64,000 nt of DNA from Duganella sp. BJB480. Its GTDB lineage: Bacteria; Pseudomonadota; Gammaproteobacteria; Burkholderiales; Burkholderiaceae_D. The stretch spans positions 517,871 to 581,870 of the forward strand of contig QVIN01000006.1 of assembly GCA_003416985.1 (NCBI GenBank). The letters run 5' to 3'. The translations under genes were made by a program, and so were the position numbers. Below are positions 54,369-62,974 of this stretch, one piece after another. Position 1 is the stretch's first letter. Each line of letters starts with the position of its first letter. The notes beneath the pieces are model-generated. The model was given only the letters and a program-made list of their open reading frames with translations, was not told where the DNA came from and did no database searches.

Positions 54369-54473
54369 GTAATGAGTCTACATCCGCCGCCCGACGGGGC
54401 GCGTTCGATTGAATACGGGCTTAAGAAACGGCTGGTAAGATGCGAAACATTGTTTAACTTGCACCTATGCGCC

Positions 54474-55361
54474 ATGACCGTTTCCGCCACTCGCCGTACC
54501 CTGTTGCTGGCGCTTGCCGTCGCTCCTTTCGCCAACGCCGCCGACCTGCTCGACAACGCGCCGTCATCCATGCCGCTGTCGGCGGCGGCGCTGTTGGCCA
54601 AGCTGGAGGCCGATTCGGGCGGCCGGCTGGGCGTGGCCGCGATGAACACTGCCGACGGCCGGCGCCTGCTGCATCGCGCCGATGAGCGCTTCCCGTTCTG
54701 CAGCACGTTCAAGATGATGCTGGCGGCGGCGGTGCTGGCCAAGGGGCCGGCGCTGCTGAAGAAGCGGGTGCGGTATTCGAAGGCCGACATGGTGACGTAT
54801 TCGCCGGTCACCGAAAAGCATATCGGCCGGGGCATGACCGTCGCGGCGCTGTGCGAGGCCACCATCCAGACCAGCGACAACACGGCGGCCAACCTGCTGA
54901 TGAAGCAGATCGGCGGGCCGGCCGCGGTGACGGCGTTCGCGCGCTCGATCGGCGACATGGAATTCCGCCTGGAGCGCATGGAGACGGAGCTCAACACCGC
55001 GCTGCCCGGCGATCCGCGCGACACCACCACGCCGGCGTCGATGGTGGAGTCGCTGCACAAGCTGGTGCTGGGCGATGGCCTGGGCGCGGCGCAGCGCAAG
55101 CAGCTCAAGGACTGGATGCTGGGGACCACCACCGGCGACACCCGCATCCGCGCCGGCGTACCGGCCGGCAGCCAGGTGGCCGACAAAACCGGCACCGGAG
55201 ACTACGGCACCACCAACGATATCGGCGTCATTTGGCAGCCGGGCAAGGCGCCGGTGGCGCTGGTGGTCTACCTCACCCAGCCCGGCAAGGACGACAAGGC
55301 GCGCAGCGAGATCATCGCCGAAGCGGCCAGGATAGTCGTCGAGGCCTTCCGAGTCGGTTAA
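54474..55361 (+). CDS. bla: Class A beta-lactamase
   Basis: 295 residues from ATG 54474. Signal region with twin Arg (ATRRTLLLALAVAPFANA), a possible Tat signal as in PenA-type enzymes. All class A motifs are present: Ser77-Thr-Phe-Lys80, Ser134-Asp-Asn136, Glu170-T-E-L-Asn174 (Glu166 of the common numbering) and Lys238-Thr-Gly240. Cys76 precedes the nucleophile, as in CTX-M and carbapenemase types, but position 238 (common numbering) is Gly, so no C69-C238 bridge. Periplasmic; hydrolyses beta-lactams. No ampR or penR regulator adjoins; expression may be constitutive. Confidence 0.94.
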   Translation: MTVSATRRTLLLALAVAPFANAADLLDNAPSSMPLSAAALLAKLEADSGGRLGVAAMNTADGRRLLHRADERFPFCSTFKMMLAAAVLAKGPALLKKRVRYSKADMVTYSPVTEKHIGRGMTVAALCEATIQTSDNTAANLLMKQIGGPAAVTAFARSIGDMEFRLERMETELNTALPGDPRDTTTPASMVESLHKLVLGDGLGAAQRKQLKDWMLGTTTGDTRIRAGVPAGSQVADKTGTGDYGTTNDIGVIWQPGKAPVALVVYLTQPGKDDKARSEIIAEAARIVVEAFRVG

Positions 55362-55390: not shown

Positions 55391-55906
55391 ATGACGAACC
55401 AAAAACAAGCGCCTGCGGGCCGGGTAGCGAATCCCTTCCTGAACGCCGACTTCTACGCGCGCATGCGCGACTACACGGAGCGCGACGCGGCCTTTTCCAA
55501 GGAAGCGAAGGCGATCGGCGAGAGCGGCGCCGGCAAGCAGGGTACCGATGCGCGCCATGCGCCGTCGCTGCAGGTGCTGCGCGCCACGGTCAAGAAGGGC
55601 CTGACGCTGGAGGTTATGTTGAATCGCATCGTGCAGGGAGTGGAGTCGGGCCTGTGGGAGCCTTGGCTGGCGGCCTACGGCATCGAACTGCGCGGCGTGA
55701 ACTACGCCAAGACCGGAGAGCGCAATGCGCGCCTGGCGATCGACATGAGCATGAGCTCCAAGGCGCATACGATATTCTCCGCCGCCGGTGTCGGCAACTG
55801 GCGCAGCCTGGTGGCCGAGGACTGCGCCCAGATCCAGATCGACAAGCCCACCGAGAAGACACCGGCCAAGCTGACCGCCATCTTCTTCCTCGACGCTCCC
55901 GCCTAA
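55391..55906 (+). CDS. Unknown protein after the beta-lactamase
   Basis: 171 residues, no signal peptide or membrane helix. AAGG precedes ATG. Regions DFYARMRDYTERDAAFSKEA, LEVMLNRIVQGVESGLWEPW and LRGVNYAKTGERNARLAIDM look folded and conserved in style, but I recognise no family. It starts 29 bp after the beta-lactamase stop on the same strand, so may share its transcript. It overlaps the convergent deacetylase gene by 4 bp. Possibly a nucleic-acid-modifying or immunity-type protein, but no motif supports either. Confidence 0.62.
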   Translation: MTNQKQAPAGRVANPFLNADFYARMRDYTERDAAFSKEAKAIGESGAGKQGTDARHAPSLQVLRATVKKGLTLEVMLNRIVQGVESGLWEPWLAAYGIELRGVNYAKTGERNARLAIDMSMSSKAHTIFSAAGVGNWRSLVAEDCAQIQIDKPTEKTPAKLTAIFFLDAPA

Positions 55907-56622
55907 TTCCACGCCAGGTGGACCACGCTGTAGCCGCGCTGCTTGAGTAGCTTGAGCAGCGACGGCAGCGCCTTCGCGGTCGGCACGTTCACGTCGTGCA
56001 TGAGAAGGATGCCGCCGCCGGTGGTGTCCAGGCTTTTGACCAGGCGCTCGACCAGGATCTCGGTGGTGTCCTCCGGCAGCCAGTCGTTGATGCCGAGGTC
56101 TATCGACATCACGGTGATGCCGGCGTCCTTGAGCGCGGCCAGCGTGGCTGGCGTCTCGGCCAGGTAAGGGAAGCGATAGGCCGGCGTGGCCTTGCCGAAG
56201 ACAGTCTGGTAGGCCGCCTGCACCTGGCGCAGATCGGCCAGCTGCGCCGGTTCGCTCATCGTGGTCAGGTTTGTATGCGTCTGGCTGTGCACTCCGGCCG
56301 AGTGGCCTTCCGCCACCACGCGCCGCGCCAGCTCGGGCGATTTCTCCAGATTGGTCCCGACCATGAAGAACGTGGCCCGCGCGCATTGGTCCGCCAGCGC
56401 CTTGAGCACCAGCGGCGTGGTTTCCGGCATCGGGCCGTCGTCGAAGGTCAGTACGATTTCGTTCTTTTGCAGCGGCAGCGGCGCGTGCTGCAGCGCGCCG
56501 TACAGCGCGGCCTCGCGCTTCAGCGTGATGGTGCGGGCGGTGCCCAGCTTATCGGGGCCGCAGTCGGCGGCGTTGGCCAGGCCGGCCAGCGTGACCAGCA
56601 AGCCTGCTATCGCGATTCTCAT
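55903..56622 (-). CDS. Polysaccharide deacetylase (NodB domain), exported
   Basis: 239 residues with a signal peptide (IAGLLVTLAGLANA). The NodB active site is complete: TFDDGP (Asp61 base, Asp62 metal), HSQTH (His112, His116 metal), RFPYL, and LLMHDV near the end. It removes acetyl groups from N-acetylated sugars, or possibly other N-acyl groups, in the periplasm. ATG 56622 overlaps the PPTase stop (TGA at 56619-56621) by 4 bp, so it is the third gene of the synthetase operon. Its presence suggests a deacetylation step in product maturation or release. Confidence 0.9.
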   Translation of the reverse strand: MRIAIAGLLVTLAGLANAADCGPDKLGTARTITLKREAALYGALQHAPLPLQKNEIVLTFDDGPMPETTPLVLKALADQCARATFFMVGTNLEKSPELARRVVAEGHSAGVHSQTHTNLTTMSEPAQLADLRQVQAAYQTVFGKATPAYRFPYLAETPATLAALKDAGITVMSIDLGINDWLPEDTTEILVERLVKSLDTTGGGILLMHDVNVPTAKALPSLLKLLKQRGYSVVHLAWN

Positions 56623-57209
56623 TGTGCTTGGTCCTGAAGTGGGAGTGCCAGCGAGGCTACCAGATTATTCGGCAGCATGGTGGACGCCGTGACCGTCGCC
56701 GGCACCGCGAGATCCTCCGACCATTCGACAAGCTGTATGCCGTGGCATTTGAGCGTGGCCTCGTGCCGGGTCCACGCCAGGACGAATGCGAGCGTGCTGT
56801 CGGCGGCGGGCGTGGCGGCCAGCGCGGCGCAGGCCTCCGGGCCGAGATAGTCGCGCGCCACGGCCTGCCAGTTGAAAACTTCATACACGCGCATCAGGTC
56901 GATGCCGACCGCGCCGTGCAGGTTGACCGCGGCGATCGAGCATCCGTCCTCGTGGCTGAAGGAGCAGCCGATATCGCTGTCATGTCCGTCCACGACGACT
57001 TTCAGGGGATGGCCCGGGAGCGAGTGGATGCCGAAGCTTGCCGCGGGCTTGCCGGTCAGCGCGGCCAGCACCTCGGATATCGCACGCCGGATTTCAGCCC
57101 GCTGGTGCGCCCGGGGCATGTCGTGGGCGACCGTTATGTAGATCGCCACGACGCCGTCCTGCGACGCCGGCACGGGCCCTGGCCAGGGATGGACGATCAG
57201 CTCCATCAT
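56619..57209 (-). CDS. 4'-Phosphopantetheinyl transferase (Sfp-type)
   Basis: 196 residues from ATG 57209. Sfp-type motifs: SFSHEDG, GIDLM (Asp104 metal) and WTRHEATLK (Trp146, Glu150, Lys154; the usual Lys before Glu is His). It transfers the phosphopantetheine arm from CoA to a Ser of a carrier domain. Start and stop each overlap the next gene by 4 bp (ATGA), so it is co-translated with the synthetase and the deacetylase. This dedicated enzyme very likely activates Ser607 of the synthetase. Confidence 0.9.
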   Translation of the reverse strand: MMELIVHPWPGPVPASQDGVVAIYITVAHDMPRAHQRAEIRRAISEVLAALTGKPAASFGIHSLPGHPLKVVVDGHDSDIGCSFSHEDGCSIAAVNLHGAVGIDLMRVYEVFNWQAVARDYLGPEACAALAATPAADSTLAFVLAWTRHEATLKCHGIQLVEWSEDLAVPATVTASTMLPNNLVASLALPLQDQAQ

Positions 57210-60200
57210 CGCGCCGGCGCGGCGGGACAGCCGGCCCAGTAGCCATTGGCGGGAATCTGCTCGCCCTTCATAACCAGCGTCAGCGCGCCGACGCGGGCGT
57301 TGTCGCCGACGACGGCGCTGTACAGCACCGCGCTGCGCGGTCCCATGTAGACGTTCTTGCCGATGGTGACGCGGTCGATCTTCATCACGCGGTCCTCGAA
57401 CAGGTGGGTTTGCGGGCAGGTGAGCGCATTCAGTTCGCTGTGGTCGCCGATGTGGACGCAGTCGAATTCCGTGATGTCGGTGGTGTCGAGATAGACACCC
57501 TTGCCGATGCGCGAACCCAGCATGTTGAACGCCAGCGGCAGCCACGGCGTGCCGCGCAGGTAGCGCATGAAGTTCGGCACGGCGATGCCTTCGTACAGGT
57601 TGGTCACGCCCTCGGACAGCCACACGAACGGCGTCCACATCGGCTCCGACTGTTTGCGGTAACGGCCGATCAGCAGCCATTTAAGCAGCACCACGAAGAT
57701 GTAGTTGCCGATGCCGTAGCCCAGGCCCGCCAGCGTCAGGTCCCACGTCACCTCGGCCCAGCGGCCGGCGCCGGCGGCCGGCATCACCGCCAGCACCAGC
57801 GTGTAGCCGACCGCGATCACCAGCGCATGCGGCGCGACGATGCGGAACGCCTCGATCAGGCCGCGGCCCAGGCGGCGCATGGGCGACGGGTGGAAGGTCA
57901 GGTTCTCGGGATAGCCGCTGGTCTGCTCGCGCGCGGGCAGGTTGATCGGCGGGGAGCCCAGCCAGGTGTCGCCGCTTTTCATCTGTTCGTTGTCCGGCGC
58001 GCGCGAGTGCACGCCGATCAGCACATGCTCCGGCAGCACCGTGCCGTCCGGGATGTAGGCGCCGTTGCCGACGAAGCTGCGGTGCGAAATCACGGTCGGC
58101 TTCATGATCATCCAGCCGCCGTCGATCTCCTCGTCTCCCAGCATGACCGCGTCGGCGATGAAGGTTTCGTCGCCCAGGGTCAGCATGTCCGGCACCACGC
58201 CCAGCGCGGTGGAGATCTCGGCGTCCTTGCCGACCTTGGCGCCGAGCAGGCGATACCAGTACGGCGCGAACACGGTGGCGTAAATGCCGTGCAGGACGTT
58301 GAGGCTCGATTCCTGGATCTGGCTCACCAGCCACTTGGCGCAGTAGGTGTTGCTGTGGATGGCCGAGCGGCCCGGCTGCAGGCGTGGCAGCACGCTCCAG
58401 CGGATGCCGGCCGACAGCAGCGCCGTCAGCACGATCAGCACAGTGCTGGCGGGGAAGGCCAGCAGGAAGTAGCGCAGCAGCTGGACGCGCACGTCGTCGC
58501 CCTGTATCCATGGCAGCCATCCTGCTTCGTCGAACCAGTCGATCAGCACGAAGCTCGGGAACACCGGCATGAAGAACAGCGTGACGATCAGCAGGATGCC
58601 GAAGATGAAGAACAAGCCTTCACCCATGCGGCGCGCGGCGCTGGCTTGTGGGCGCGGCGGCAGGCGGGTGGTGTCGAAGGCGCCGGTGTCGCGCGCCGGC
58701 GAACCGGCCCACACGCGGCCGGCCGGCACGCGCATGCCGTCGCCCAGCGCCGACTGGCCTTCCAGGTGGCCCAGCGCTTCGATATGCGTATTGCCCTCCA
58801 TGACGGCGAAGGAGCTGACGCAGGTGTCGTCTTCCAGCGTGATTTGGCCCAGCAGCAGGCGGCCGCGCTGCACACGGGCGTTCTCGAAGTTGACGGCGTT
58901 GCCGATGCTGACGTTGTCGCCGATGCTGAGCAGGTCCGGCGAACGCAAGGTCATCGAGCCGATGATGACGTCCTTGCCCACCTTGGCGCCCAGCGCGCGC
59001 AGCCACCAGGCGTTGAGCGAGGAGCCGCTCAGCAGGTAGGCAGGCGCCGCCTCCACCAGTCGGTCGGCCAGCCACCAGCGATAGTAGGTGATGCCCCACA
59101 GCGGATAGTCGCCGGCCTGCAGGCGGCCGGCGATCAGCCATTTGCCGGCGATGGCGATGCCGAATTCGCCGATCGTCGCCAGCAGGAACACGCCGACCGA
59201 GGCGGCGATCGCGATCGCCACGGAGTCGCCAGGATCGCCGGTGAAGAAGTGGTAGGTGAAGAACGGCGCCAGCCACTGCGCCATGCGCAGCGCCACCAGC
59301 GCCGGCATCGCGGCCACTTGCGCCATGCCGCAGGTCCAGCGTTTGAACGAGGAGGGCGGCGTCCAGTCGGCCTCCGCCTCGGCGGCCTTGGGCGCGTCGG
59401 CCAGCACCAGGGCGATCTTGCCGACCTGGCGCTGCTGGTAGATGTCGCGCACGGTGATGTGGGCGAAGCGCGGATCGGCGCGCAGGGCCGAGGCCAGGCG
59501 CGCCGCGAAGAACGAGTGGCCGCCAAGGTCGGTGAAGAAGTCGGCCTGGCGCAGCACCGGCTGGCCGGGGAACAGCGTGGCCAGCGCGGCGAACAGCGCT
59601 TCCTCACCCGGGGTCTCGGGCAGGTCGGATTCCTCGTTGCCGCCGGCCGGCGGTGCGCTCAGCGGCATGGCCTTCAGCGCCTTGCGGTCGATTTTGCCGG
59701 AGGTCAGGCGCGGCATGGCGTCCTGCATTTCGTAGCGGCCGGGGACCATGTACGGCGGCAGCGTGGCGGCCAGGCTGGCGCGCAATGTCTTGGGATCCAG
59801 CGTAGCTCCAGCTGCGGCTTCCGGCACGATGTAGGCCACCAGCTGGTCGATGCCGTCGTCCTTGCGCAGCAACACCGCGACCGTGCCGACGCCTTCCTGC
59901 TGCGCCAGCACGGCCTCGATCTCGCCCAGCTCCACGCGGAAGCCGCGTATCTTCACCTGGTCGTCGGCACGGCCCAGGCACAGCACCTCGCCGTCGGCGT
60001 CGATGCGGGCCAGGTCGCCGGTGCGGTACAGGCGGGCGTCGTGCTGGCCGCTGGACCATGGGTTGACCAGGAATTTTTCCGCCGTCAGGTCTGGTCGGCC
60101 AAGGTAGCCGGCCGCCAGGCCAGGGCCGGTGATGCACAGCTCACCGATCTCGCCGCGCGGCAGCAGGCGCAGCGCCGGCTCGTGCGGCGCCACGGCCGCT

Positions 60201-61333
60201 TGCGCCAACGGATTGTCGGTGTCGATGCCGGCCGGCGCGTCGGGACCCTGCGCGACGGCTGCGGCGGCGATGGCCGGTTCGGTGCTGGTGTCGATCACCA
60301 GCAGGCCGTAATTGGGCAGCGGCGTGCCGATGGTGACCGGATGGCCCGGCTGCAGGCGCGCCAGGCTGGCCGACACCGTCGCCTCGGTCGGACCGTAGGT
60401 GTTGAACATCTGCCGGCCGGGGCGCGACCAGCGCTCCACCAGCGATTCCGGGCACATCTCGCCACCCAGGTTGATCAGGCGCAGGCTGGGCACTTCCTGA
60501 TTGAACAGCGCCAGCAGGGTCGGCACCGCGTGCAGCACGGTGACCCGGTTCTCGTCCAGCATGCGCGGCAGCGTTTCGGGATCGCCGCTGATTTCCTTGG
60601 GGCCGATCCACAGCGTGGCGCCAACCAGGTAGGCGATCCAGATCTCTTCGAACGACATGTCGAAGGCCACCGAGAAGCCTTGATACACCTTGTCCTGCGC
60701 GCTCACGCCGAGCACCGCGTTCTCGCTGCGCAGGAAGTGGCAGATGCTGCGCTGGGTGATCAGGATGCCTTTCGGCTTGCCGGTCGAGCCGGAGGTGTAG
60801 ATGACGTAGGCCGGCACGTCGGGCGATACCGCGCTGCGGCGCGACAGCGTTGCGCCGGCCGGCGGCGCGGCCAGCAGCGCCTCGGCGGTCCACACGGGAC
60901 GGCCGATGTCCGCCAGGCGCGGCGCGAAGGCGGCGCAGGTCAGCACGCCGGCGCCGTCGGCGTCGTCCAGGCACACTTGCAGGCGGTCGACCGGGATGTC
61001 CTCGTCGACCGGCAGCCAGGCCGCGCCGGCCTTGGCGATGCCCGCCTGTAGCACCAGCAGCTCGATGCCGCGCGGCAGCCACAGGCCGACGATCTGGCCC
61101 GGGCGCACGCCGGCGTCGATCAGGCGGGCCGCCACCAGGTCGGCCTGGGCGTTCAGTTCGCGGTAGCTGAGGCTGCGGGCGCCGAAGATCAGCGCGGTGT
61201 GGTCGGGGGTGCGGGCGGCGCTTGCTTCCAGCAGGTCCGCCAGGATTTCCTCGCGCAGCAACTCGCTTTGCGGTTTCCCGTAAAGAATGTCTGGATGCGA
61301 TTGCGGAATGTGCGGTGTTACTGGGTCGTTCAT
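57206..61333 (-). CDS. Pls/PosA-type single-module NRPS (poly-amino acid synthetase)
   Basis: 1375 residues, close to the about 1320 of epsilon-poly-lysine synthetase (Pls). Adenylation domain (about 25-570): YTSGSTGKPKG, FDMSFEEIW, NTYGPTEATV, YRTGDLAR, RGFRVELGEIE. Carrier domain: DLGGHSFF with Ser607. The rest has six membrane helices in three pairs, separated by three left-handed beta-helix (hexapeptide) domains (AKVGKDVIIGSM, AKVGKDAEISTA, SRIGKGVYLDTT starts). There is no condensation or thioesterase domain, the Pls/PosA layout in which the membrane part polymerises one amino acid. The start is ATG 61333. Divergent from amn; overlaps the PPTase by 4 bp. Confidence 0.9.
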   Translation of the reverse strand: MNDPVTPHIPQSHPDILYGKPQSELLREEILADLLEASAARTPDHTALIFGARSLSYRELNAQADLVAARLIDAGVRPGQIVGLWLPRGIELLVLQAGIAKAGAAWLPVDEDIPVDRLQVCLDDADGAGVLTCAAFAPRLADIGRPVWTAEALLAAPPAGATLSRRSAVSPDVPAYVIYTSGSTGKPKGILITQRSICHFLRSENAVLGVSAQDKVYQGFSVAFDMSFEEIWIAYLVGATLWIGPKEISGDPETLPRMLDENRVTVLHAVPTLLALFNQEVPSLRLINLGGEMCPESLVERWSRPGRQMFNTYGPTEATVSASLARLQPGHPVTIGTPLPNYGLLVIDTSTEPAIAAAAVAQGPDAPAGIDTDNPLAQAAVAPHEPALRLLPRGEIGELCITGPGLAAGYLGRPDLTAEKFLVNPWSSGQHDARLYRTGDLARIDADGEVLCLGRADDQVKIRGFRVELGEIEAVLAQQEGVGTVAVLLRKDDGIDQLVAYIVPEAAAGATLDPKTLRASLAATLPPYMVPGRYEMQDAMPRLTSGKIDRKALKAMPLSAPPAGGNEESDLPETPGEEALFAALATLFPGQPVLRQADFFTDLGGHSFFAARLASALRADPRFAHITVRDIYQQRQVGKIALVLADAPKAAEAEADWTPPSSFKRWTCGMAQVAAMPALVALRMAQWLAPFFTYHFFTGDPGDSVAIAIAASVGVFLLATIGEFGIAIAGKWLIAGRLQAGDYPLWGITYYRWWLADRLVEAAPAYLLSGSSLNAWWLRALGAKVGKDVIIGSMTLRSPDLLSIGDNVSIGNAVNFENARVQRGRLLLGQITLEDDTCVSSFAVMEGNTHIEALGHLEGQSALGDGMRVPAGRVWAGSPARDTGAFDTTRLPPRPQASAARRMGEGLFFIFGILLIVTLFFMPVFPSFVLIDWFDEAGWLPWIQGDDVRVQLLRYFLLAFPASTVLIVLTALLSAGIRWSVLPRLQPGRSAIHSNTYCAKWLVSQIQESSLNVLHGIYATVFAPYWYRLLGAKVGKDAEISTALGVVPDMLTLGDETFIADAVMLGDEEIDGGWMIMKPTVISHRSFVGNGAYIPDGTVLPEHVLIGVHSRAPDNEQMKSGDTWLGSPPINLPAREQTSGYPENLTFHPSPMRRLGRGLIEAFRIVAPHALVIAVGYTLVLAVMPAAGAGRWAEVTWDLTLAGLGYGIGNYIFVVLLKWLLIGRYRKQSEPMWTPFVWLSEGVTNLYEGIAVPNFMRYLRGTPWLPLAFNMLGSRIGKGVYLDTTDITEFDCVHIGDHSELNALTCPQTHLFEDRVMKIDRVTIGKNVYMGPRSAVLYSAVVGDNARVGALTLVMKGEQIPANGYWAGCPAAPAR

Positions 61334-61471: not shown

Positions 61472-62974
61472 ATGTCAATGAACCGTCCGTTTATCGCCCC
61501 CATGCAATTTGACGATCCGATTGCCGCTTATGAACAGGTTTTGGCCATTTACGAGGCCAACGTCGCCCACCTGCGCGATGCCATGAAACGCTTTGTGGCC
61601 GGCGAGGATGTCGGCGAGCACGTGCGCGGCTGCTACCCGTTCGTGCGGGTCCACACCGACACCGTGGCGCGCGCCGATTCGACGCTGGCGTTCGGCTTCG
61701 TGGCCGGCCCCGGCACCTACGAAACCACGCTGACCCGGCCCGACCTGTTCGCGCGCTACTACCAGCAACAGTTCAAGCTGCTGCTGAAGAACCACGGCAG
61801 CCACCACCTGCGCATCGAGGTGGGCACCAGCTCGCAGCCGATCCCGATCCACTTCTCGTTCGCCGAGCACGAGCACATCGAAGGCAATATGAGCGCGGAG
61901 CGGCGCCTGCTGATGCGCGACGTTTTTGATCTACCCAACCTCGCCGCGATGGACGACGGCATCGCCAACGGCACCCACGAGCCGCCGCCGGGCGAGGCGC
62001 AGCCGCTGTCGCTGTTCACGGCGCCGCGCGTGGACTACTCGCTGCAGCGCCTGCGCCACTACACCGGCACCTCGTGCGAGCACTTCCAGAAGTTTGTGCT
62101 CTTCACCAACTACCAGTTTTATATCGATGAGTTCGTCAAGCTGGGCCATGAGCTGATGGGCCAGGCGTCCGGCGCGCCGGGAGACGACTACATCGCCTTC
62201 ATCGAACCGGGCAACATGGTCACGCGCCGTGTCGGCCAGGCGGTGCAGGCCAGCGACGCGCACGGCGCGCAGCCGCCGCGCCTGCCGCAGATGCCGGGCT
62301 ACCACCTGGTGCGCGCCGACGGCACCGGCATCTCGATGGTCAACATCGGCGTCGGCCCGGCCAACGCCAAGACCATCACCGACCACATCGCCGTGCTGCG
62401 CCCGCATGCGTGGCTGATGCTGGGCCACTGCGCCGGCCTGCGCAACACGCAGCAGCTGGGCGACTACGTGCTGGCGCACGGCTATGTGCGCGAGGACCAC
62501 GTGCTCGACGAGGACCTGCCGCTGTGGGTGCCGATCCCGCCGCTGGCCGAGGTGCAGGTGGCGATCGAGGCCGCCGTGGCTGAGGTCACGCAGCTCACCG
62601 GCCACGATTTGAAGCGCGTGATGCGCACCGGCACCGTCGCCAGCACCGACAACCGCAACTGGGAGCTGCTGCCGCAGCGCACGCCGGAGCGCCGGTTCAG
62701 CCAGAGCAGGGCGATCGCGCTGGACATGGAAAGCGCCACCATCGCCGCCAACGGCTTCCGTTTCCGCGTGCCGTACGGGACTTTGTTGTGCGTGAGCGAC
62801 AAGCCCATGCACGGCGAGATCAAATTGCCCGGCATGGCTAACCAGTTTTACCGCGAGCGTGTGGACCAGCATTTACGGATCGGCATCCGCGCGCTGGAAC
62901 TGCTGCGCGCGCTGGGCGTGGACAAGCTTCACAGCCGCAAGTTACGCAGCTTCACGGAGGTCGCGTTCCAGTAA
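61472..62974 (+). CDS. amn: AMP nucleosidase
   Basis: 500 residues from ATG 61472 with GAGGAG before. N-terminal domain (about 10-190; DDPIAAYEQVLAIYEANVAH, HFSFAEHEHIEGN), then the catalytic purine phosphorylase-like domain: SMVNIGVGPANAKTITDHIA, LMLGHCAGLRNTQQLGDYVL, and IALDMESATIAANGFRF with the Glu-containing MES motif, and RERVDQHLRIGIRALELLR. It splits AMP into adenine and ribose 5-phosphate, a nucleotide-balance enzyme; cytosolic. It is divergent from the synthetase and ends at a strong terminator. Possible -10 TACAAT at 61425-61430, without a clear -35. Confidence 0.95.
   Translation: MSMNRPFIAPMQFDDPIAAYEQVLAIYEANVAHLRDAMKRFVAGEDVGEHVRGCYPFVRVHTDTVARADSTLAFGFVAGPGTYETTLTRPDLFARYYQQQFKLLLKNHGSHHLRIEVGTSSQPIPIHFSFAEHEHIEGNMSAERRLLMRDVFDLPNLAAMDDGIANGTHEPPPGEAQPLSLFTAPRVDYSLQRLRHYTGTSCEHFQKFVLFTNYQFYIDEFVKLGHELMGQASGAPGDDYIAFIEPGNMVTRRVGQAVQASDAHGAQPPRLPQMPGYHLVRADGTGISMVNIGVGPANAKTITDHIAVLRPHAWLMLGHCAGLRNTQQLGDYVLAHGYVREDHVLDEDLPLWVPIPPLAEVQVAIEAAVAEVTQLTGHDLKRVMRTGTVASTDNRNWELLPQRTPERRFSQSRAIALDMESATIAANGFRFRVPYGTLLCVSDKPMHGEIKLPGMANQFYRERVDQHLRIGIRALELLRALGVDKLHSRKLRSFTEVAFQ

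Follow-up and report, generated by a model that had tools for sequence, protein, structure and literature searches.

The 64,000-nt stretch of Duganella sp. BJB480 DNA analysed here (the window) carries on its minus strand, at 55903–61333, a posA-like synthetase gene followed by a gene for a phosphopantetheinyl transferase (PPTase) and a gene for a predicted secreted deacetylase of the CE4 (NodB) type, with an ATGA junction at each of the two borders (Table 1). The three genes, their coordinates, and the two 4-bp overlaps are as an earlier note on this DNA described them. The synthetase family itself is known; this operon type adds to it a PPTase gene next to posA, present in many Oxalobacteraceae, and a deacetylase that is restricted to one clade and secreted by prediction. 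A promoter and terminator scan found no promoter-like and one terminator-like site, not above the level of shuffled sequence.

Table 1. Features of the posA-type operon and its surroundings, in window coordinates (A, adenylation domain; T, carrier domain; TM, transmembrane segment; aa, amino acids).
Feature	Position	Strand	Evidence or remark
posA-like synthetase, 1375 aa (A, T, three x (2 TM + left-handed beta helix))	57206..61333	-	TIGR02353 832.4 bits; 8g95 519.7 bits
Adenylation core, residues 35-351	60281..61231	-	Pfam; 8g95 alignment
Adenylation C-terminal subdomain, residues 471-547	59693..59923	-	AMP-binding_C 35 bits, cut-off 24.5
Carrier-domain motif LGGHS, residues 603-607; Ser607 is the predicted phosphopantetheine site	59513..59527	-	
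Pls/PosA terminal (polymerising) domain, residues 671-1371	57221..59323	-	TIGR02353; AlphaFold2 model
TM pair 1, residues 673-691 (weak) and 704-722	59168..59317	-	model helices 2-28 and 35-64
TM pair 2, residues 907-925 and 956-974	58412..58615	-	hydrophobicity; model
TM pair 3, residues 1165-1183 and 1199-1217	57683..57841	-	hydrophobicity; model
ATGA overlap, synthetase stop / PPTase start	57206..57209	-	
PPTase, 196 aa	56619..57209	-	PF01648 33.4 bits, cut-off 25
ATGA overlap, PPTase stop / deacetylase start	56619..56622	-	
Predicted secreted CE4 (NodB-type) deacetylase, 239 aa	55903..56622	-	Polysacc_deac_1 108.1 bits, cut-off 23.1
AMP nucleosidase gene	61478-62974		diverges upstream of synthetase
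Gene for 171-aa protein	55391-55906	+	4-base tail-to-tail overlap with deacetylase gene
Class A beta-lactamase gene, PEN-like type	54471-55361	+	NF033103 354 bits, cut-off 200

Judged from its sequence, the synthetase has every defining feature of the Pls/PosA family that was tested. Its score against TIGR02353, the model of the Pls/PosA terminal domain, is far above chance and well clear of the curated cut-off of 423.1, which by homology supports the layout of a non-template homopolymer synthetase proposed in the earlier note. The adenylation domain scores well above its Pfam threshold (AMP-binding, 245.8 bits against 29.9); the carrier domain is weak in Pfam (PF00550 16.3 bits, below the cut-off of 20.8), and the carrier region matches a solved carrier domain in phmmer (E 0.00077). 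At E up to 0.01 Pfam reported neither a condensation nor a thioesterase domain, in keeping with the single nonribosomal peptide synthetase module lacking condensation and release domains that had been described. The six membrane helices named in the note also reappear, as three pairs of hydrophobic segments. One of the six, at the N-terminal end of the series, is weak (1.32), so that a threshold of 1.6 finds only five. An AlphaFold2 model of residues 671–1375 (705 residues; pLDDT 71.8, pTM 0.78) shows a threefold repeat in which beta-helical strands come after a pair of helices. The three hexapeptide domains claimed earlier are recognisable as these three beta-helical repeats, but only one exceeds the Pfam cut-off. 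The 50 Foldseek matches listed for the polymerising domain are only weak ones, to hexapeptide acetyltransferases (TMq 0.09–0.18). The synthetase is predicted to be membrane-bound.

Synthetases above the family cut-off occur in 42 of 74 genomes of the genus, 120 of 294 of the family, 15 of 250 of the order, and 26 of 398 of the phylum. For comparison of loci, a partial gene of genome G056 was left out of the genus set and a partial locus (L263) out of the order set; the 19 other-genus loci of the family were hand-picked from the family hits, one to three per genus; and the set of named loci, which comprises the best 80 among 467 confirmed relatives, overlaps with the genus and family sets. Within these best 80, the nearest named synthetases, each at 97% over the terminal domain, come from Rugamonas sp. 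A1-17 and Duganella sp. BJB476 and place the genome in the Duganella/Rugamonas group.

The closest characterised relative is PosA of Acinetobacter baumannii, a delta-poly-L-ornithine synthetase (PMC10522769; PDB 8G95–8G98). It shares family, A–T–membrane layout, and substrate pocket with the window synthetase, and its adenylation domain (8g95) is the best PDB sequence match at 519.7 bits, whereas that of Pls (7wew), the epsilon-poly-L-lysine synthetase of Streptomyces, is more distant at 262.9 bits. Pls also comprises A, T, and six predicted TM helices in three pairs, and the PosA authors' own model has the same threefold repeat of helix pair and beta helix as ours (PMC10522769). The A. baumannii posA is a single-gene operon (PMC10522769); here, in contrast, PPTase and CE4 genes follow with ATGA overlaps.

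The pocket residues, mapped through an ungapped stretch of the alignment with 8g95, are D225, M226, E229, H268, N288, G290, T312, V320, and S321, and the code lysine is assigned to K547 on the basis of the motif SGKIDRKAL. All nine mapped positions are identical to those of the pocket published for PosA, D M E H N G T V S K (PMC10522769). The single adenylation domain also follows the family rule of Asp or Glu at pocket positions 1 and 3 (PMC10522769) with D225 and E229, and differs from Pls at position 2, which is Ala in Pls (PMC10522769) and Met here. The same nine letters are found in 41/41 genus, 18/19 other-genus family, 78/79 named, and 8/8 order synthetases. Of the 19 phylum loci 2 have them, and the remaining 17 show pockets of type D L E D or type D F E A. 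Because the pocket is identical to that printed for PosA, ornithine is the predicted monomer, and the alternatives of poly-lysine and poly-ornithine left by the note narrow to the latter: the enzyme is very probably a polyornithine synthetase.

The PPTase belongs to the Sfp/AcpT type: it matches PF01648 (ACPS) above the cut-off and shares GxD and E-A-x-x-K, but reaches no NCBIfam equivalog cut-off (HetI 32.8 of 370). GxD and W-x-x-x-E-A-x-x-K, whose Asp, Glu, and Lys we take to have the roles they have in Sfp-type PPTases, are common to the PPTase relatives, and the conserved residues are kept in all aligned rows except that of L109, which is truncated and was scored as PPTase-positive on a partial match. 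The residue before the conserved Glu is His in the window PPTase and His, Arg, Leu, or others in its relatives. The genome holds two further PF01648 genes; its other Sfp-type protein has Lys at that position, and GLDIE where the window PPTase has GIDLM. Directly behind this other Sfp-type gene lies a second, distant NodB-type deacetylase gene in convergent orientation (L206 1168-2640, G000:C2).

A PPTase gene directly follows the synthetase gene in the window and at 34 of 41 genus loci, 10 of 19 other-genus loci, and 65 of 80 named loci, including 17 of 19 from Janthinobacterium and 13 of 15 from Massilia. It does so at 3 of 9 order and 1 of 24 phylum loci, which span at most ~1.5 kb downstream (591 bases in L262, none in L286), so that a PPTase or NodB gene farther away would escape. 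No PPTase gene was found downstream at 7 of 41 genus loci, 9 of 19 other-genus loci, or the three named Undibacterium loci; its presence beside posA is not universal. On the genus tree this pattern amounts to two changes. Synthetase and PPTase genes overlap by 4 bases at 23 of the 35 PPTase-bearing genus loci, window included (start codons here and below were chosen by script as those nearest the aligned start). The deacetylase, 171-aa protein, AMP nucleosidase, beta-lactamase, and monooxygenase genes were all absent from the vicinity of posA at the 19 other-genus loci, which argues that the synthetase–PPTase pair is kept beyond general synteny. Conservation of the PPTase neighbour, on which the note had made its proposal depend, thus extends across genera, and we regard the PPTase with high confidence as the partner of the synthetase.

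The deacetylase begins with a hydrophobic signal segment (residues 3–21) and is predicted to be secreted. It has the five motifs that we take to characterise CE4 enzymes: TFDDG (59–63), HSxTH, RFP, SxD, and LMHD. Across 25 aligned deacetylases TFDDG 59–63, H112, H116, R150, D175, H209, C21, and C80 are invariant. The score for NodB proper, the chitooligosaccharide deacetylase of nodulation, is well short of the cut-off (TIGR04243 95.6 bits, cut-off 240), and the closest fold match is the Bdellovibrio peptidoglycan deacetylase Bd3279 (5jp6). Compared with Bd3279 and with CE4 enzymes at large, the window protein differs in its N-terminal stretch with the invariant C21 and in its place within a polymer-synthetase operon. 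Other fold matches include PuuE allantoinase and ArnD, enzymes that act on other amides. Six close pairs of deacetylase genes give dN/dS values of 0.08 to 0.28, and the window gene compared with five others gives 0.21 to 0.47, so that selection on the deacetylase is mostly purifying. Since fold, catalytic motifs, and the context of homologues point to a glycan rather than the polymer, the enzyme probably acts on a glycan, most likely peptidoglycan or another N-acetylglucosamine glycan.

The deacetylase gene is far more restricted than the PPTase gene. It lies downstream of posA in the window and at 23 of 41 genus loci, but at none of the loci outside the genus (0/19 family, 0/9 order, 0/24 phylum); the named loci with it are 16 of 20 from Duganella, 1 of 6 from Rugamonas, and 0 of 54 others. 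A whole-genome search (E up to 1e-40) found orthologues in 32 of 74 genus genomes. Twenty-four of these belong to genomes with posA, where every one has its start no more than 3.3 kb downstream of that gene, and eight are in genomes without posA and are 53–61% identical to the window protein. Homologues of 63% identity and up occur in the genus only downstream of posA (24/24), and a tree separates 17 tested posA-linked deacetylases from 8 others with split support of 94/92. The same search found no orthologue in 18 of 42 posA-bearing genus genomes, and none was found at the 52 outside loci, of which those of the order and phylum cover at most ~1.5 kb downstream; this rules out the deacetylase as an obligate part of the system.

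Where PPTase and deacetylase genes occur together, they overlap by 4 bases at 18 of 20 genus loci, window included; the exceptions are L066 (56 bases apart) and L074 (2608 bases apart). Retention of this overlap rules out mere synteny. Beyond the two closest trio relatives, the PPTases are only 40–51% identical to that of the window. Because the overlap is kept and selection on the deacetylase is mostly purifying, the coupling is real within one clade. The trio is therefore more than a neighbourhood, within one clade of one genus; as a conserved unit it stands there and fails outside (NodB at 0/52 loci). The synthetase–PPTase pair is the core and the deacetylase a lineage-specific accessory.

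On balance we favour a reading in which a PosA-type synthetase is made and primed by the operon and a clade-specific glycan deacetylase serves as accessory. By homology, the PPTase would place phosphopantetheine on the carrier Ser607; the adenylation domain, with its PosA-identical pocket, would then activate L-ornithine and load it on the carrier; and the three-fold membrane/beta-helix domain, as in PosA, would join the ornithines through isopeptide bonds to yield delta-poly-L-ornithine, a polycation. In one clade, the secreted CE4 enzyme may deacetylate a glycan of the envelope or the matrix, which would make the cell's own surface less anionic, so that the polycation is tolerated or spaced. 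We advance self-protection as the purpose of the deacetylase only tentatively. A broader version, a self-contained polycation module that joins polymer synthesis and priming in a single translational unit with self-immunity or matrix anchoring through a changed envelope charge, is doubtful; if it is true, no earlier case of an immunity or anchoring factor linked to the synthetase of a cationic homopolymer is known to us.

Several observations weigh against the favoured reading. The NodB label requires five changes on the synthetase tree (e.g., one gain and four losses), and the deacetylase is missing from three of the five relatives closest to the window. At L071, which was scored as NodB-positive, the gene (G002:C66:170127-170828) has one in-frame TAG and may be decaying, or the assembly may be misread. 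L091, L097, L099, and L103 have no PPTase gene downstream, and NodB lies ~0.9–1.1 kb behind posA; gene calls in L091, L097, and L103 place a 234–236-aa gene between the two, and the L091 copy of it scores as PEP-CTERM (TIGR02595, 21.5 bits against a cut-off of 16). Finally, among the PgdA models of NCBIfam none reaches its cut-off for the deacetylase, a point against a peptidoglycan substrate.

The label changes and the interrupted copy would equally suit a deacetylase that is a passenger of the locus, devoted to the degradation of plant or environmental polysaccharides and merely co-translated with the polymer genes. Its nearest homologues in posA-less genomes (8 of 74) sit in a glycoside-hydrolase-type context: seven of these eight loci have two or more neighbour families in common (L249 has none), and the typed representative, L246, is flanked by genes for GH31, GH97, alpha-galactosidase, alpha-L-fucosidase, a BNR/sortilin-type protein, and a carbohydrate esterase of the SASA family; this set resembles one for hemicellulose degradation, of xyloglucan type as we infer. 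Moreover, beta-lactamase, monooxygenase, and AMP nucleosidase genes keep a similar neighbourhood within the genus without a stated link to the polymer. However, a passenger would not be expected to keep its 4-base overlap while the PPTase diverges so far, to have close homologues solely behind posA, or to occupy its own side of the tree, and we consider this explanation unlikely.

Somewhat less likely still is removal of O-acetyl groups from an acidic exopolysaccharide, which would let the polycation be bound and held in the biofilm matrix. Predicted secretion, the carbohydrate esterase and glycoside hydrolases near homologues, and the PEP-CTERM-type neighbour in the tested copy of the four PPTase-less loci are consistent with it, as is the modestly increased biofilm of an A. 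baumannii posA knockout (PMC10522769). Against it, the best fold match is a peptidoglycan deacetylase, and no exopolysaccharide genes are among the direct neighbours of the operon, the genome not having been searched for them.

Transfer of ornithine or short chains to an envelope acceptor, with no free homopolymer, would suit a predicted membrane-bound enzyme whose terminal domain weakly resembles hexapeptide acyltransferases; it is improbable because PosA, with the same pocket and layout, yields 7–12-mers in vitro (PMC10522769). Deacylation of the polymer itself, which the note had suggested, draws on the operon coupling and on the PuuE and ArnD matches but is highly improbable, given the evidence for a glycan substrate, the lack of a polymer-acylating acyltransferase among the three genes, the deacetylase-free posA genomes of the genus, and the lack of any mention of acylated products in the sections of PMC10522769 consulted.

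The wide spread of the synthetase family is already in print, and before PosA no polymer synthetase of this kind had been characterised from outside the actinomycetes (PMC10522769, 2023); the biological role of its product is open (PMC10522769). We found no paper describing a PPTase or deacetylase partner of posA, or the trio, a weak negative that covers openly licensed literature, with subscription papers mostly outside; the note's view that the trio is undescribed holds to this extent. Deacetylase-bearing and deacetylase-free relatives are close (synthetases 91–93% identical), so the polymer's surface role and producer tolerance are testable in environmental bacteria by simple gene deletions.

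The genome also encodes a stand-alone TM and beta-helix protein of ~250 aa (L002 1498-2277, minus strand; G000:C30:191741-192076) with similarity to a third of the polymerising domain of PosA (TIGR02353 59.5 bits). Second TIGR02353 hits of ~55–73 bits, which may not all be the same gene, occur in 39 of 42 posA-bearing genus genomes and in 1 of 31 without posA, the partial G056 being set aside. In the family, where three candidates per genome were scored, only five genomes of genus g6 show a second hit. Co-occurrence with posA may be a clade effect and seems not to hold in g6.

Around the operon, the 171-aa protein has no family match in Pfam or NCBIfam, and its gene stays beside the operon in a subset of relatives. 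An FAD monooxygenase gene also lies downstream, and a class A beta-lactamase gene is found near posA at many genus loci.

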